From: an uncultured Mollicutes bacterium
GTDB lineage: Bacteria; Bacillota_I; Bacilli_A; RFN20; CAG-826
Assembly (NCBI GenBank): GCA_937893635.1
Contig: CALBGF010000245.1
Location: 1-8,037 of the forward strand
Direction: 5' to 3'
Length of the DNA: 8,037 bases
Shown: positions 1 through 5,707 of the stretch, in pieces
How positions within the stretch are numbered: the stretch's first letter is position 1
Layout: the number at the start of each line of letters is the position of its first letter
Notes under the pieces: generated by a model
The model's database searches: none
The model's input: the letters and a program-made list of their open reading frames with translations, nothing else
Told to the model about the DNA's origin: nothing
Program-made: the position numbers and the translations under genes

Positions 1-29
1 TAAAAAACCACGAGCGGTAAACTCGTGGT
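1..29 (-). terminator. Intrinsic terminator of the ispD/S1-pgi operon
   Basis: Read on the minus strand, an 8-bp perfect stem (ACCACGAG paired with CTCGTGGT; arms 22-29 and 7-14, 7-nt loop) is followed directly by six T residues. It lies 24 bp beyond the pgi stop codon, as expected for a Rho-independent terminator. The end of the T-tract coincides with the window edge, so it may extend further. Confidence 0.9.
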
Positions 30-53: not shown

Positions 54-1718
54 CTAAAATCCAGGTTTTCCAAGTAAATGGAACATATTTCTTTTATAAA
101 TTTCGACACCTGGTTGATTAAATGGATTAACACCTAATAAGTAAGCAGACATTGCACAAGCTCTCATAAAGAAATAGAATAAAGCGCCTAAATGGTAAGC
201 ATCCATTTTATTAACATTAATTAAGATATTAGGAACATTTCCATCTTCTTCGTGGGCTTTGATAGTTCCTTTCATTGCTTGTTCATTTACAAATGATAAT
301 GTTTTACCTTCAAGATAATTCAATCCATCAAGATTTTCATCATCATGAGGAACTTTAATATCAATATAAGGAGTATTAACATGAATTGTAGTTTCAAATA
401 ACACTGGAGATCCTTGTTGAATGTATTGACCTAATGAATGTAAATCAGTGGAGAAAGTAACAGATCCAGGGAATAAGCCTTTTTTATCTTTTCCTTCAGA
501 TTCACCAAATAGTTGTTTTAACCATTCACCAATTAATGATAATGAAGGTTCATAAGTAACAAATAATTCTACTGGTTTATTGTGACGATAGAAGTAATCA
601 CGTAATACAGCATATTTATAACAATCATTTTCTAATAAATTGTCATTATCGTATTTGACCATAGCGTCAAATGCACCTTGAAGCATTTTTTTAATATCAA
701 TACCAGCACAAGCAATTGGGAATAAGCCAACTGCGGTTAATACACTATAACGACCACCAATGCTATCAGGTAATACAAATGTTTCGTATCCTTCAGCATT
801 ACAAAGTTTCTTTAATGCGCCTTTTTCTTTATCGGTTGTGGCAAATATGGCTTTTCTACTAGCTTCAACTCCGACTTTTTCAATTAATAATTCACGTAAT
901 AATCTAAAAGCAATTGATGTTTCAGTAGTGGTACCTGATTTAGAAATTACATTAATAGCGAATTTCTTATTTTTAAGATAATCCATAACTTGAGCAATAT
1001 AAGTAGGTGAGAAAGTTTGACCTAAATAGATAATCTCTAATTTATCATTACTAAATAATCCACGTAATGCCTCAATTGCTGCTCTTGCACCTAAATAAGA
1101 TCCACCGATACCACAAACGACTAAGGTTTCAAAATTCTCACGAACATATGCGGCATCTTTAATCATACGTTCAACTTCTTTTTTATCGTAATCATTTGGC
1201 CAAGTAGTCCAACCTAAGAAATCACTACCTTCGCCAGTTTTGTTATTAATCATGTTGTTGATTTCTTTAACCTTATCTTTATAAGAATCAAAATCAACAT
1301 GTTCAATAATGTGTGAAAAATCTAAACTTATCATATTTTGTTCCTCCATAGACTCGTCTATCCAACTATTTAATTTTTCTTTTAAAGGATAAAAATCCTT
1401 ATCAGTAAATATCATTTTTATGCGCTTTGGTTTGTTAAACGAAAATGGCTTTTTTAAATTTTGTCTTTCTCGTTCACCTAATGCTTTTATTGAAAGCTTT
1501 AGGTAATTGTTTTTCTCTTCATATCCTAATACTTTGACTTTAACTTCGTCATCAACTTTGACATAATCTTCAATATTTTTGACAAATTTTGAAGATATTT
1601 CGGAAATATGAATTAATCCAGTTTGTCCATTTTCAAACACCACGAACGCACCATATGGCTGAATACCAGTAACACGTCCAACAATAATATCGTTTGCTTT
1701 ATAATAAACGCGTTCCAA
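54..1718 (-). CDS. pgi: S1 RNA-binding domain (YugI/CvfD-like) fused to glucose-6-phosphate isomerase
   Basis: The 554-residue protein joins two whole proteins. Residues 6-80 form an S1 domain (GRVTGIQPYGAFV, GLIHISEIS). Residues 81-128 are a basic linker and a PLKEKLNSWIDES helix, resembling from memory the C-terminal tail of Bacillus YugI/GSP13/CvfD. Residues 129-554 are a full glucose-6-phosphate isomerase, which interconverts glucose-6-P and fructose-6-P in cytoplasmic glycolysis. The isomerase part shows TGEGSDFLGW, the SIS motif GIGGSYLGARAAIEAL (203-218), signature 1 (GGRYSVLTA, 321-329), the catalytic-Glu motif FGESEGK (E406), H427, and signature 2 ending NPFNQPGVEIYK (K542). The start is TTG, chosen because an 8-base Shine-Dalgarno match (GAGGTGAT, 1731-1724) lies 5' of it and the S1 fold begins at once; no better start precedes it. 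The ispD stop lies 2 nt upstream, so translational coupling is likely. The gene ends with tandem TAG stops. An internal ribosome site could also give isomerase alone (1334-54, 426 residues). Confidence 0.95.
   Translation of the reverse strand: MERVYYKANDIIVGRVTGIQPYGAFVVFENGQTGLIHISEISSKFVKNIEDYVKVDDEVKVKVLGYEEKNNYLKLSIKALGERERQNLKKPFSFNKPKRIKMIFTDKDFYPLKEKLNSWIDESMEEQNMISLDFSHIIEHVDFDSYKDKVKEINNMINNKTGEGSDFLGWTTWPNDYDKKEVERMIKDAAYVRENFETLVVCGIGGSYLGARAAIEALRGLFSNDKLEIIYLGQTFSPTYIAQVMDYLKNKKFAINVISKSGTTTETSIAFRLLRELLIEKVGVEASRKAIFATTDKEKGALKKLCNAEGYETFVLPDSIGGRYSVLTAVGLFPIACAGIDIKKMLQGAFDAMVKYDNDNLLENDCYKYAVLRDYFYRHNKPVELFVTYEPSLSLIGEWLKQLFGESEGKDKKGLFPGSVTFSTDLHSLGQYIQQGSPVLFETTIHVNTPYIDIKVPHDDENLDGLNYLEGKTLSFVNEQAMKGTIKAHEEDGNVPNILINVNKMDAYHLGALFYFFMRACAMSAYLLGVNPFNQPGVEIYKRNMFHLLGKPGF
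1332..1347 (-). promoter_or_regulatory. Internal Shine-Dalgarno and ATG at the S1/PGI junction
   Basis: On the minus strand GGAGG (1347-1343) is followed by 8 nt and then ATG (1334-1332), in frame with the fusion at residue 129. The residues that follow (MISLDFSH) look like a native isomerase N-terminus, lying about 40 residues before GSDFLGW, close to the Bacillus enzyme. GGAGG is encoded by in-frame codons ATG GAG GAA. The sequence and spacing are what an independent gene start would have; that it is used in vivo is inference. Confidence 0.75.
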
Positions 1719-1720
1719 TA

Positions 1721-2413
1721 TTAATCACCTCGACTTAATAAGCATTCCAATAGTTTTAAATCCATTGGTGTAGTAATCTTAAAATTCAAATCATTATTTT
1801 TGAGTAAGTAAACTTTTTTGCCACTCATAGTAACTAATTGAGCATCATCACTAGCATTATGAATGTTGTTATTAATAGCTAACTTATGAGCTTTAAAAAT
1901 TAATCCATATTTAAATGCTTGTGGTGTTTGAATAGCCACTAAAGAAGATCTATCCACTAAAGCACCATAATGGTAATTGTTATTAGTGGCGATTGTATCA
2001 ATAACATTTCCAACCATTGTTATTGCTGAATGTCTTTTACTAGTAACAATCATTTCTTCAATTAAAGAAGAACTAATTAATGGCCTAGCAGCATCATGAA
2101 TAATGACTAAATCTTTGCTAACTGCAAAACCTTTTAATGCTCCTAAGACATTAAAAGATGATTCTTGCCTAGTTTTACCGCCTTCTACAAGCATATGAAC
2201 TTTTTCAAATTTAAACTTATCGATAATTTTATATATTTTTTTGAAAAACTTTTTTTGTGTGACAATGATAATTTCATCAATACTTGGAGTGTTTTCAAAC
2301 GCTTGAATAGAATAGTAAATCAAAGGCTTATCATGAATTTCAAGAAATTGTTTGGGAGTGTGATTGTTCATTCTTTTGCCATTACCTGATGCTAAGATAA
2401 TTCCAAAATTCAT
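1721..2413 (-). CDS. ispD: 2-C-methyl-D-erythritol 4-phosphate cytidylyltransferase
   Basis: IspD transfers CMP from CTP to methylerythritol 4-phosphate in the MEP route to isoprenoid precursors. The 230-residue product has the nucleotidyltransferase loop (LASGNGKRM, 7-15, with Ser in place of the usual Ala/Gly), PKQF (20-23), GGKTRQESS (78-86), HDAARP (106-111), TPQAF (163-167), SDDAQLV (188-194) and FKITTPMDL (211-219, K212). Length is normal for the family. The paralogue TarI (ribitol-5-P cytidylyltransferase) is the main alternative, but HDAARP and the SDDA motif favour IspD. A GTG nine bases upstream (2422) is also in frame, but it sits inside the Shine-Dalgarno sequence GAGGTGA (2425-2419), so the ATG at 2413 is preferred. 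The last codons (Arg-Gly-Asp) contain the ribosome site of the downstream S1-pgi gene. No other MEP gene is in the window. Confidence 0.85.
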   Translation of the reverse strand: MNFGIILASGNGKRMNNHTPKQFLEIHDKPLIYYSIQAFENTPSIDEIIIVTQKKFFKKIYKIIDKFKFEKVHMLVEGGKTRQESSFNVLGALKGFAVSKDLVIIHDAARPLISSSLIEEMIVTSKRHSAITMVGNVIDTIATNNNYHYGALVDRSSLVAIQTPQAFKYGLIFKAHKLAINNNIHNASDDAQLVTMSGKKVYLLKNNDLNFKITTPMDLKLLECLLSRGD

Positions 2414-2432
2414 AACGCTCACCTCTCAATGT

Positions 2433-2513: not shown

Positions 2514-3350
2514 TTACTTTAAATCGCTCAACTTACTTTCGACGTTCATAAGTTCAAACGATACCGCAATTGAATCGATAATTAGTTTCATTGCTTTTTC
2601 TAATGTCGAGTTCGCGGTATAATCGGCTTTGCAAGCGAAGTTAATACGATCGGCATCATATAACTGCATTGCTTTTTCTTTAGCATCATTTGCGTATATG
2701 GCAATAGATTTTCCGCCATTAGACTTAACTAATGCCATACAAGGAACATCAGTCATTCCATCACCTAAATAGACAATATTTTGATGAGGGATACGACGAT
2801 TGATAGTTTTAGAATTTAAAGTATTATCATCAGTAACATCAAGAACACCTTTTGATATTCGATAGATAAATTGGGTTTTTCCAGTATAGTTGATTGTTAA
2901 TTTTGGCCAAACTGGTTCATCGTTTTCATCAAATAAGAATTCACATCCGTATATCGCGGTAAACTCATTAGCTATTGAACATCCATCAATAATTTCTTTT
3001 GTCCCAGATGATACTAAATAATGTTCGACTTTGACACCTTTTGATTCTCCATAAGCATTGATTCTTTTGAACCAAGTAGAAACACCAGGATAGAAGCGAA
3101 TATCTTTACCTAAACTTTTTAAATATTCTTTGGTTAATTTAATGCCTTTTTCTTTAGAAAGTTTAACCATCATATACATATAGGATAAAATTCTTTCAAC
3201 ATTTGTTTTTTCTGAAAAAACTGATGTTTCATGCCAGAATTCTTCAGGAGTCATTCCTAAGGCCGGAATAAAAGAGTAGTTTTGCATATCTTCGCTAGAT
3301 AATGTTTTATCAAAATCATAGACGATAGCAATAATTGGTTGCTTTTTCAT
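2514..3350 (-). CDS. HAD-superfamily hydrolase, phosphoserine-phosphatase-like
   Basis: The 278-residue cytoplasmic protein has all four haloacid-dehalogenase motifs: motif I YDFDKTL (nucleophile D12, acid/base D14), motif II LVSSG (S114), a motif III lysine in TGKTQ (K158), and motif IV YLGDGMTDVPC (D197, D201). About 95 residues between motifs I and II, mostly helical by eye, form a C1-type cap, as in phosphoserine-phosphatase-like members. The substrate cannot be read from sequence; a phosphomonoester is likely, and SerB activity is not established because the cap is unlike classical SerB and no serine genes are nearby. AGGAGG (3366-3361) precedes the ATG with a slightly long 10-11-nt spacing. 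It is a single-gene unit with its own promoter and terminator. Confidence 0.85.
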   Translation of the reverse strand: MKKQPIIAIVYDFDKTLSSEDMQNYSFIPALGMTPEEFWHETSVFSEKTNVERILSYMYMMVKLSKEKGIKLTKEYLKSLGKDIRFYPGVSTWFKRINAYGESKGVKVEHYLVSSGTKEIIDGCSIANEFTAIYGCEFLFDENDEPVWPKLTINYTGKTQFIYRISKGVLDVTDDNTLNSKTINRRIPHQNIVYLGDGMTDVPCMALVKSNGGKSIAIYANDAKEKAMQLYDADRINFACKADYTANSTLEKAMKLIIDSIAVSFELMNVESKLSDLK

Positions 3351-3466: not shown

Positions 3467-3493
3467 ATTTATTTGAAAAGGAGCTTAACTGTT

Positions 3494-4042
3494 ATGATAT
3501 TGAATGAAGTAAATTTATTACCATTATATATCGTTATAGCTATCATTGGTGTTTTGTTATTTTTGTTTTTATTGATAGAAATAATTGGCTATTTTTCTTT
3601 AAAAAAATTAAATGATAGAATTGAAAAAAGAAACTACAATGTCAATATCTTATTAGCACAAAAATACGATATATTGGTCTTGCTTGCTAAAGTATTTAAA
3701 AAATATAACATGACCATACCAAGTGAATTTCAAGAAGAATTATCACCAAAAATGGATGAATCATTAAAGCGTTTAACACTTACAGAAAGACTTACAGTTA
3801 AAGCATACTTAATGAAAGCTAGTCAAACCTTATTATATTTTGCAGAAAGTAATGAAAAAGTTAAGAATGATAATGAGTACCAAATATTAAAAAAATCTCT
3901 ATTAGAGATTGATCAAAACCATCGTAGGGCATTAGCGCTTTATAACGCTGATGCATTGGGCTTTAATTACTGGATTAAAGTATGGGCGTTTCGTCCAATC
4001 GCGCGTTTAGCAAATTTCAGTGAGAGAGAAATCGTTTCCTAG
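3494..4042 (+). CDS. Divergent LemA-family membrane protein
   Basis: The 182-residue product has one N-terminal hydrophobic helix (about residues 10-33) followed by a helical domain. The layout fits LemA: a segment after the membrane helix (LNDRIEKRN...AQKYDILVLLAKVFKKY, about 39-71) corresponds to the family's conserved RYDLIPNLV region, and the C-terminus (IDQNHRRALALYNADALGFNYW, then IARLANFSERE) matches the family's closing pattern of YN...N, LA and F-x-E. The central helices are poorly conserved. LemA proteins are anchored with the helical domain on one membrane face; their biochemical role is unsettled. An in-frame TTG at 3473 was rejected because AGGAG (3479-3483) falls inside it; the ATG at 3494 follows with 10-nt spacing. 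No clear terminator separates it from gpmI, 66 bp on, so partial cotranscription is possible. Family assignment is from pattern, not a search. Confidence 0.65.
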   Translation: MILNEVNLLPLYIVIAIIGVLLFLFLLIEIIGYFSLKKLNDRIEKRNYNVNILLAQKYDILVLLAKVFKKYNMTIPSEFQEELSPKMDESLKRLTLTERLTVKAYLMKASQTLLYFAESNEKVKNDNEYQILKKSLLEIDQNHRRALALYNADALGFNYWIKVWAFRPIARLANFSEREIVS

Positions 4043-4065
4043 TTATCGTTTTTCTTTAATTATTC

Positions 4066-4082
4066 ACACAAATGTGTATAAT
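4066..4082 (+). promoter_or_regulatory. Inverted repeat and -10 box upstream of gpmI
   Basis: A TATAAT (4077-4082) lies 26 bp before the gpmI ATG. Immediately upstream, and sharing one base with it, are the arms ACACA (4066-4070) and TGTGT (4073-4077). Flanking AATTAT and ATAATT extend the dyad imperfectly. No good -35 is visible (CTTTAA at 17 bp). This could be a gpmI promoter with an operator, or a weak hairpin after the upstream gene; there is no T-tract, which argues against a terminator. Confidence 0.45.
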
Positions 4083-4108
4083 TATTAGTGGTAAAGAGGT
4101 GTATTAAA

Positions 4109-5707
4109 ATGAATAAATTACCAGTTATATTAATTATTATGGATGGCTATGGCATAAGAAAAGAAACTTATGGTAATGCTATCGCGGAAGCTAAAAAACC
4201 ACATCTTGATATGCTTATGAGTAAATATCCTACTACATTAATTCAAGCATCTGGTGAATATGTTGGTTTACCAGATGGTCAAATGGGTAACTCAGAAGTA
4301 GGTCACTTAAATTTAGGTGCAGGACGTATTGTTCACCAATCATTAAGTTTAATTAACAAAGCAGTTAAAGATGGAACATTTTATGAAAATGAACATTATT
4401 TACACGCTATTAAATATGTAAAAGATCATAATTCTAATTTACATATTATGGGCTTATTATCTGATGGTGGTGTTCACTCACATATTAATCACATCATTGC
4501 TATGATTAAGATGGCTAAAAAAGAAGGATTAAAAGATGTATTCGTTCACTGCTTTATGGATGGAAGAGACGTTGATCCACAAGTTGGTGTAACATACGTT
4601 GATAAGATTGCTAAAGTAATGGAAGAAGAAAACTTTGGACATATCGCCGATATTTCTGGAAGATACTATGCAATGGATAGAGATAAAAACTTTGATCGTA
4701 ATGATAAGAGCTACCGCGTTATGGTTGATCATGATGGAGCAAGCTTTACTGATTATAAGCAATACTTCAAAGATCAATATGCATATTTACCTACTACAGG
4801 AAAAGATGCATCTGATGAATTCATTATCCCAGCTTATAACGCTAATGTGGATGGCAGAATCAAAGATGAAGATGCGATTATTTTTATGAACTTTAGACCA
4901 GATCGCGCAATTCAAATTGCTACAATGTTCTCTAACCCATATTTCTATGAACATCCAGCAGTTAAAGCTGATGGTACATTAATGTATAAACCATATGTAC
5001 CAAGTCATGTTTTGAAAGATATTTTCTTTGTATCAACAATGAAATATGCTGATTCAGTAAAAGGTGAAATTGCCTTTGCTTTACCTAAATTAACAAATGT
5101 ATTAGGTGTATGGCTCGCTGATCATGGATATCGTCAACTTCGTATTGCTGAAACTGAAAAATACGCTCACGTAACATTCTTCTTTGATGGAACAATTAAT
5201 TATGATGGAATTGAAAGACCAGAATTAAAAGGATCTCGTCGTGTCTTAGTTAATTCTCCAAAAGTTCCTACATATGATATGCAACCTGAGATGTCAGCGT
5301 ATGAAGTTACTGATAAATTATTAAAAGAGTTAGATAAGAAAGATTTAGATGTTGTTATATTGAATTTTGCAAACTGCGATATGGTTGGACATACAGCGGT
5401 TGAACCAGCCGTTGTTAAAGCTGTTGAAACAGTTGATGAATGTGTTGGTAAAATTTATGATTACGTTCAACAAAATGGCGGCACACTTATTGTTACTGCT
5501 GACCATGGTAATGCTGAAATTATTAAAGATGCTGAAGGTCATCCATTTACTGCTCATACAACAAGTAAGGTTCCAGTAATTATTACTATTCCAGGATTAA
5601 AACTTCGTGAAGATGGTAAGTTATCTAATATTGCTCCAACAATTATTGATTTATTAGGTGACACAAAGCCAGTTGAAATGACTGAAGATAGTTTAATTAT
5701 TAAATAG
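4109..5707 (+). CDS. gpmI: 2,3-bisphosphoglycerate-independent phosphoglycerate mutase
   Basis: GpmI interconverts 3- and 2-phosphoglycerate in lower glycolysis through a phosphoserine intermediate and needs two Mn2+ ions. The 532-residue protein has the alkaline-phosphatase-fold motifs in order: MDGYG (metal D12), GQMGNSEVGH (nucleophile S62), VHSH (H123), DGRD (R153, D154), GRYYAMDRD (R185, R191), NFRPDR (R263, R266), ETEKYAHVTFFF (K351), NCDMVGH (D424, H428), TADHGNAE (D465, H466) and H483. Numbering up to R191 agrees with the Bacillus stearothermophilus enzyme as I recall it; the protein is about 20 residues longer than typical, mostly between R266 and K351. An in-frame GTG (4088) was rejected: AGAGGTG (4095-4101) fits the ATG at 4109, and MNKLPVILIIMDGYG is a normal N-terminus. 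A terminator follows, so it is apart from the usual gap-pgk-tpi-eno cluster, none of which is seen here. Confidence 0.97.
   Translation: MNKLPVILIIMDGYGIRKETYGNAIAEAKKPHLDMLMSKYPTTLIQASGEYVGLPDGQMGNSEVGHLNLGAGRIVHQSLSLINKAVKDGTFYENEHYLHAIKYVKDHNSNLHIMGLLSDGGVHSHINHIIAMIKMAKKEGLKDVFVHCFMDGRDVDPQVGVTYVDKIAKVMEEENFGHIADISGRYYAMDRDKNFDRNDKSYRVMVDHDGASFTDYKQYFKDQYAYLPTTGKDASDEFIIPAYNANVDGRIKDEDAIIFMNFRPDRAIQIATMFSNPYFYEHPAVKADGTLMYKPYVPSHVLKDIFFVSTMKYADSVKGEIAFALPKLTNVLGVWLADHGYRQLRIAETEKYAHVTFFFDGTINYDGIERPELKGSRRVLVNSPKVPTYDMQPEMSAYEVTDKLLKELDKKDLDVVILNFANCDMVGHTAVEPAVVKAVETVDECVGKIYDYVQQNGGTLIVTADHGNAEIIKDAEGHPFTAHTTSKVPVIITIPGLKLREDGKLSNIAPTIIDLLGDTKPVEMTEDSLIIK

Follow-up and report, generated by a model that had tools for sequence, protein, structure and literature searches.

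Does a single gene of the window (the whole stretch of 8,037 nucleotides of DNA analysed here) join an RNA-binding S1 protein to glucose-6-phosphate isomerase (PGI), and which products would such a gene give? The original prediction had placed an intact S1 domain and a complete isomerase, with its catalytic residues kept, in one frame. Analysis of the 554-residue product confirmed that the S1-PGI fusion is real. Both families were recognised by Pfam (S1 at residues 7-78, PGI at 194-542) and by NCBIfam profiles, and the predicted domain boundaries proved right (Table 1). The isomerase profile NF010697 matched residues 128-554 well above its cut-off. Residues 6-123 covered the whole of the CvfD profile NF040579 (positions 1-113), with a score of 112.1 bits that missed the curated cut-off of 117 by 5 bits; no match over this cut-off was found in 16 related genomes searched, fused or unfused. 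Relatives in the PDB were GSP13 (2k4k) for residues 6-124 and the firmicute isomerases 1b0z, 3ff1 and 3ifs for the PGI part. The AF2 model of the protein (pLDDT 83.5, pTM 0.73) contained strands between residues 11 and 76 and a helix at 106-123, and it retrieved 3ff1, which is 54% identical to the isomerase part. Residues R323, E406, H427 and K542, which we map to active-site positions of rabbit PGI, were invariant in an alignment of 32 rows. At the junction, the CvfD-type tail runs straight into Met129 of the isomerase with no added linker.

Fusion aside, the two halves look like ordinary representatives of their families. The S1 part resembles the small S1 proteins CvfD/YugI/GSP13 (NF040579; PDB 2k4k) in matching the full-length profile, C-terminal helix included, and in having the place that these proteins occupy before pgi in relatives. 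It differs from them in its slightly lower profile score and in having no stop, so that it continues into PGI instead of forming a separate short protein. The isomerase part resembles firmicute-type PGI (NF010697; PDB 3ff1, 3ifs and 1c7r/2pgi) in its full-length match, its kept catalytic residues and its 51-55% identity to solved structures, but the window protein bears an N-terminal S1 part of 128 residues.

Table 1. Features of the S1-pgi locus and its neighbours, in window positions.
Feature	Positions	Strand	Remarks
Intrinsic-terminator-like hairpin and T run, after pgi stop	7..29	-	
S1-PGI fusion ORF	54..1718	-	554 aa; TTG start 1718-1716, stop 56-54; without internal stop
Glucose-6-phosphate isomerase part, residues 129-554	57..1334	-	NF010697 623 bits (cut-off 443); Foldseek 3ff1 E 5e-47
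Internal ATG, residue 129, native PGI start	1332..1334	-	Would start a free isomerase of 426 aa
Segment between S1 fold and PGI, residues 81-128	1335..1478	-	Predicted flexible at 87-104 and 121-126 (pLDDT <50)
Internal Shine-Dalgarno GGAGG	1343..1347	-	8 nt before PGI ATG
CvfD/YugI (GSP13)-type S1 protein	1350..1703	-	S1 fold at residues 6-80, followed by C-terminal segment and helix (as far as 123)
ispD, upstream neighbour	1721..2422	-	2 nt from S1 start codon; TIGR00453 198.9 bits, cut-off 181
Shine-Dalgarno GAGGTGA before TTG of long product	1725..1731	-	Overlaps ispD 3' end; duplex energy -11.6
HAD-like (HAD-IB-like) phosphatase, upstream of ispD	2514..3350	-	Under family cut-offs

The same architecture was found in several separate lineages, a point that the original prediction had wanted checked, as attested by protein matches, by the loci of the order around genome G001 and by a sample of the class. 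The 98%-identical cluster of the window protein comprised 101 sequences, spread over 15 contigs. Among the best 120 of 8000 scored homologues of the window protein, 25 were S1+PGI proteins, 535-556 aa in length, and with an Erysipelothrix-type query 74 of the best 120 matches listed had this architecture; their share among the listed homologues is more than chance. In the order, 256 of 279 genomes gave a match and 132 of these were examined, which with the window itself makes 133 loci. An S1 gene was present just upstream of pgi, on the same strand, in 132 of them, the one at which none was found being L136. Both genes were fused in one frame in 11 of the 133 loci (the window, L010-L013, L017, L019, L021, L076, L077 and L130). 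In the order, 120 unfused loci had a clear PGI start, and their S1 stop was located between -30 and +17 nt from it; the two genes overlapped in 69 of these 120 and shared a frame in 12. This result agrees with the earlier proposal that a conserved neighbourhood has collapsed into one gene. The class sample (395 genomes, 331 matching) provided six further fused genomes, L162-L167, outside the 279 of the order; they were found among 40 loci hand-picked for long or single frames, which give no fair rate. Four of them, L163-L166, match proteins named Erysipelothrix. P0036, a protein of 530 aa with a duplicated PGI stretch and no S1, was not counted as fused. Separate genes with a stop at the junction, which the original prediction had named as counting against it, do occur in relatives outside the window's clade, whereas within that clade all five genes with DNA are fused.

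Loci L182-L188, in which TGA is apparently a sense codon, also have an S1 gene directly ahead of pgi, which shares its frame but is separated from it by TAA or TAG; from these loci the S1-pgi gene pair looks old. Several fused proteins of 550-552 aa (P0200, P0201, P0221 and similar) have in addition a match to PF21710. The HAD-like phosphatase was matched by tblastn in 100 of the 120 unfused order loci and in 8 of the 17 fused ones, and is thus a conserved unnamed neighbour of S1-pgi. A LemA-like ORF (window 3473-4042, + strand) was just below the Pfam cut-off (24.5 vs 26.2), and in L001 an ORF that resembles it by eye (3711-4277, - strand) lies close to these genes.

The original prediction, right about the collapse of the gene pair, envisaged one fused product only and did not mention the ATG at residue 129 behind a GGAGG. 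This start is conserved. A Met was present within one residue of Met129 in all 26 aligned fused proteins, the window's included, and in all 17 fused genes for which DNA was available an ATG lay no more than three codons from this position. The 17 fused internal starts had a mean Shine-Dalgarno energy of -8.9, as against -8.3 at the 141 PGI starts of unfused genes; the energy reached -8 or stronger in 14 of the 17 fused genes, the weak sites being those of L076 (-4.6), L013 (-5.8) and L167 (-6.4). These energy counts excluded seven code-4 loci, four loci with no S1 match (L136, L169, L171 and L174) and four with no clear PGI start codon (L120, L180, L181 and L196). The window gene thus has an internal in-frame start with a Shine-Dalgarno site, in the form of a conserved GGAGG-8-ATG. 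A search within the S1 part for a promoter that would give a separate PGI mRNA produced one 9/12 match on that strand (1438-1411), and the 18 matches found in the region vs 21.5 expected from shuffles indicated no excess. Given the conserved internal Shine-Dalgarno and ATG, a free isomerase is likely to be a second product. In bacteria, in-frame internal starts are known to give N-terminal proteoform pairs (PMC11005335). As in those pairs, a second start would draw two products from one frame; in contrast to them, the start predicted to be used here derives from a former gene boundary enclosed by the fusion.

To the fusion, its recurrence, the conserved internal start signal and, for the pairs tested, purifying selection on S1, all directly observed, the account that we favour, and consider probable, adds the following steps. 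A tightly coupled cvfD(yugI)-pgi pair would have lost the boundary between its genes and become an in-frame fusion that retained the isomerase's own Shine-Dalgarno and ATG. Initiation at the upstream TTG would then yield S1-PGI and initiation at the internal ATG free PGI, while a separate S1 protein would no longer be produced. Both forms are plausible enzymes because of the flexible stretch before the isomerase and the kept catalytic residues. PGI is a dimer, and long and short subunits could therefore mix. The S1 part, by homology with YugI, would dock on the 30S subunit and hold a share of the isomerase there. B. subtilis YugI has been cross-linked to eight proteins of the 30S subunit, migrates together with 30S and gives a two-hybrid interaction with S10 (PMC10090944); the long form may therefore tether the enzyme to ribosomes, as the original prediction had proposed together with a possible coupling of sugar flux to translation. 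This 30S binding was reported for unfused YugI, whereas for the window's S1 part it is predicted. We infer that both starts are used, that mixed dimers form and that the S1 part docks on 30S.

We then considered whether the fused state could be a neutral consequence of stop-codon loss, S1 being a harmless extension and the fusion drifting in and out with no tethering function. In a tree of 106 isomerase parts, the fused label changed 14 times, at least 8 of these changes being forced by well-supported branches; a larger, rougher tree of 158 rows gave 11 changes, 7 of them forced. A single clade containing all 40 fused rows was rejected (p-AU 1.55e-5). As the outermost rows were unfused, fusion is suggested to have recurred, more than splitting, although the tree was rooted only at its midpoint and the counts carry no direction. 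All fusions examined join the genes at the same boundary. Such recurrence speaks for neutral loss, as do the fusions that stand as singletons among unfused kin and the unfused order loci in which S1 already shares the pgi frame; an internal start would moreover keep free PGI available. Against it, the fused state persists across clades whose members are 73-85% identical, and the window's clade was fused in 7 of 7 tree rows. Isomerase-only proteins at 74-77% identity (P0010 etc.) were considered as possible members of this clade, either annotated from the inner start or genuinely split; a tree that included 24 of the 94 listed, as proteins only, put none of them inside it.

The S1 part also stays under purifying selection in the pairs tested, although any S1 function, with or without tethering, would lead one to expect this. 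The S1-fold dN/dS was 0 to 0.04 in five of six fused pairs, the sixth, WIN/L010, being saturated. Three pairs (L019/L021, L164/L165 and L164/L166) had no nonsynonymous change in the S1 fold with 10-22% of synonymous sites different, and the values were 0.02 for L163/L164, a pair near saturation, and 0.04 for L011/L012. The segment preceding PGI had a dN/dS of 0.07-0.26 in the six pairs, higher than that of PGI in each of them and higher than that of S1 where computable. No second PGI was found in 10 of 10 fused genomes, nor any further short CvfD-like gene, other S1 matches in these genomes residing in frames of 454-749 aa. Taken together, we regard neutral loss as somewhat unlikely; it is compatible with two products, and its odds overlap with those of the favoured account.

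An obligate fusion would yield the 554-aa protein alone and carry the internal GGAGG-ATG as a relic of the operon that preceded it. In its favour, one protein is the default reading of a fused frame, and L013, L076 and L167 have weak sites. The single-gene codon test, in which the seven codons preceding the ATG were exchanged for synonyms at random, was divided. It gave p <=0.05 in 8 of 17 fused genes (L010, L011, L012, L019, L021, L162, L164 and L166, several of them close kin) and p >0.05 in the other 9, as an obligate fusion would allow, with 0.17 for the window and 0.08-0.72 for L013, L017, L076, L077, L130, L163, L165 and L167; in some genes the higher values arise because the residues themselves force the motif. 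A relic fits less well with the Met present within one residue in all 26 fused proteins, and with codon choice across genes. Among the 20 invariant Glu columns of the window's clade (5 genes, 73-85% identity), GAG was present in all rows only at codon -4; GAG occupied 10 of the 100 invariant-Glu cells, half of them in that one column. In the Erysipelothrix-type genes (n=4, three of them close kin), 1 of 28 invariant Glu columns was all-GAG, at codon -3. Each of these two codons builds the Shine-Dalgarno site of its clade. Synonymous codons otherwise vary, the same codon being used for the same residue at a frequency of 0.51-0.64 between the more distant members of the two fused clades. In L019/L021, 4 of 40 Glu columns were all-GAG and the site was not singled out, this pair being too close to tell. 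We read this pattern as that of a working internal start kept by selection, bearing in mind that the signal is older than the fusion. Its retention may in part be slow decay, as it was inherited from the unfused state and the rows within a clade are related. On balance an obligate fusion appears unlikely to us.

That an assembly or sequencing error joined two genes, as the existence of unfused relatives might suggest, is hardly conceivable, being contradicted by the recurrence of the fusion, by the 101 sequences on 15 contigs of the 98%-identical cluster and by further fusions, some of them on contigs of 1.7-2.4 million bases and some in Erysipelothrix-named proteins.

The locus is more interesting than the original prediction stated, because of the retained inner start. 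It amounts to a natural experiment done several times over, in which the same two neighbours fused on several branches and retained the inner start signal. Should both products be made, the locus would show how an operon can turn into a fusion and still supply free enzyme, and it would be a direct test case for the activity of a glycolytic enzyme bound to the ribosome. A stronger version, that this is a repeatedly evolved device in which two starts on one mRNA would split PGI into 30S-docked and free pools, the initiation ratio linking translation capacity to glucose-6-phosphate use, strikes us as improbable. The two-domain gene is probably dual-product on the evidence of its sequence, and any function beyond this we infer.

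No paper on an S1-isomerase fusion was found among open-licence PMC papers. YugI has been linked to RNA turnover (PMC3814617), the available passages of which do not mention pgi. The S1-PGI architecture itself is already in public databases under plain isomerase names: proteins of Erysipelothrix piscisicarius, E. inopinata and Erysipelotrichales metagenome-assembled genomes share it and are recorded only as glucose-6-phosphate isomerase, the S1 part being unnamed. A dual start could explain the two gene lengths listed in some Erysipelothrix. In E. inopinata and E. urinaevulpis (P0124/P0175 and P0144/P0177), isomerases of 544-545 aa and of 423-424 aa share the same longest contig, and the two lengths seem to reflect gene callers disagreeing on the start.
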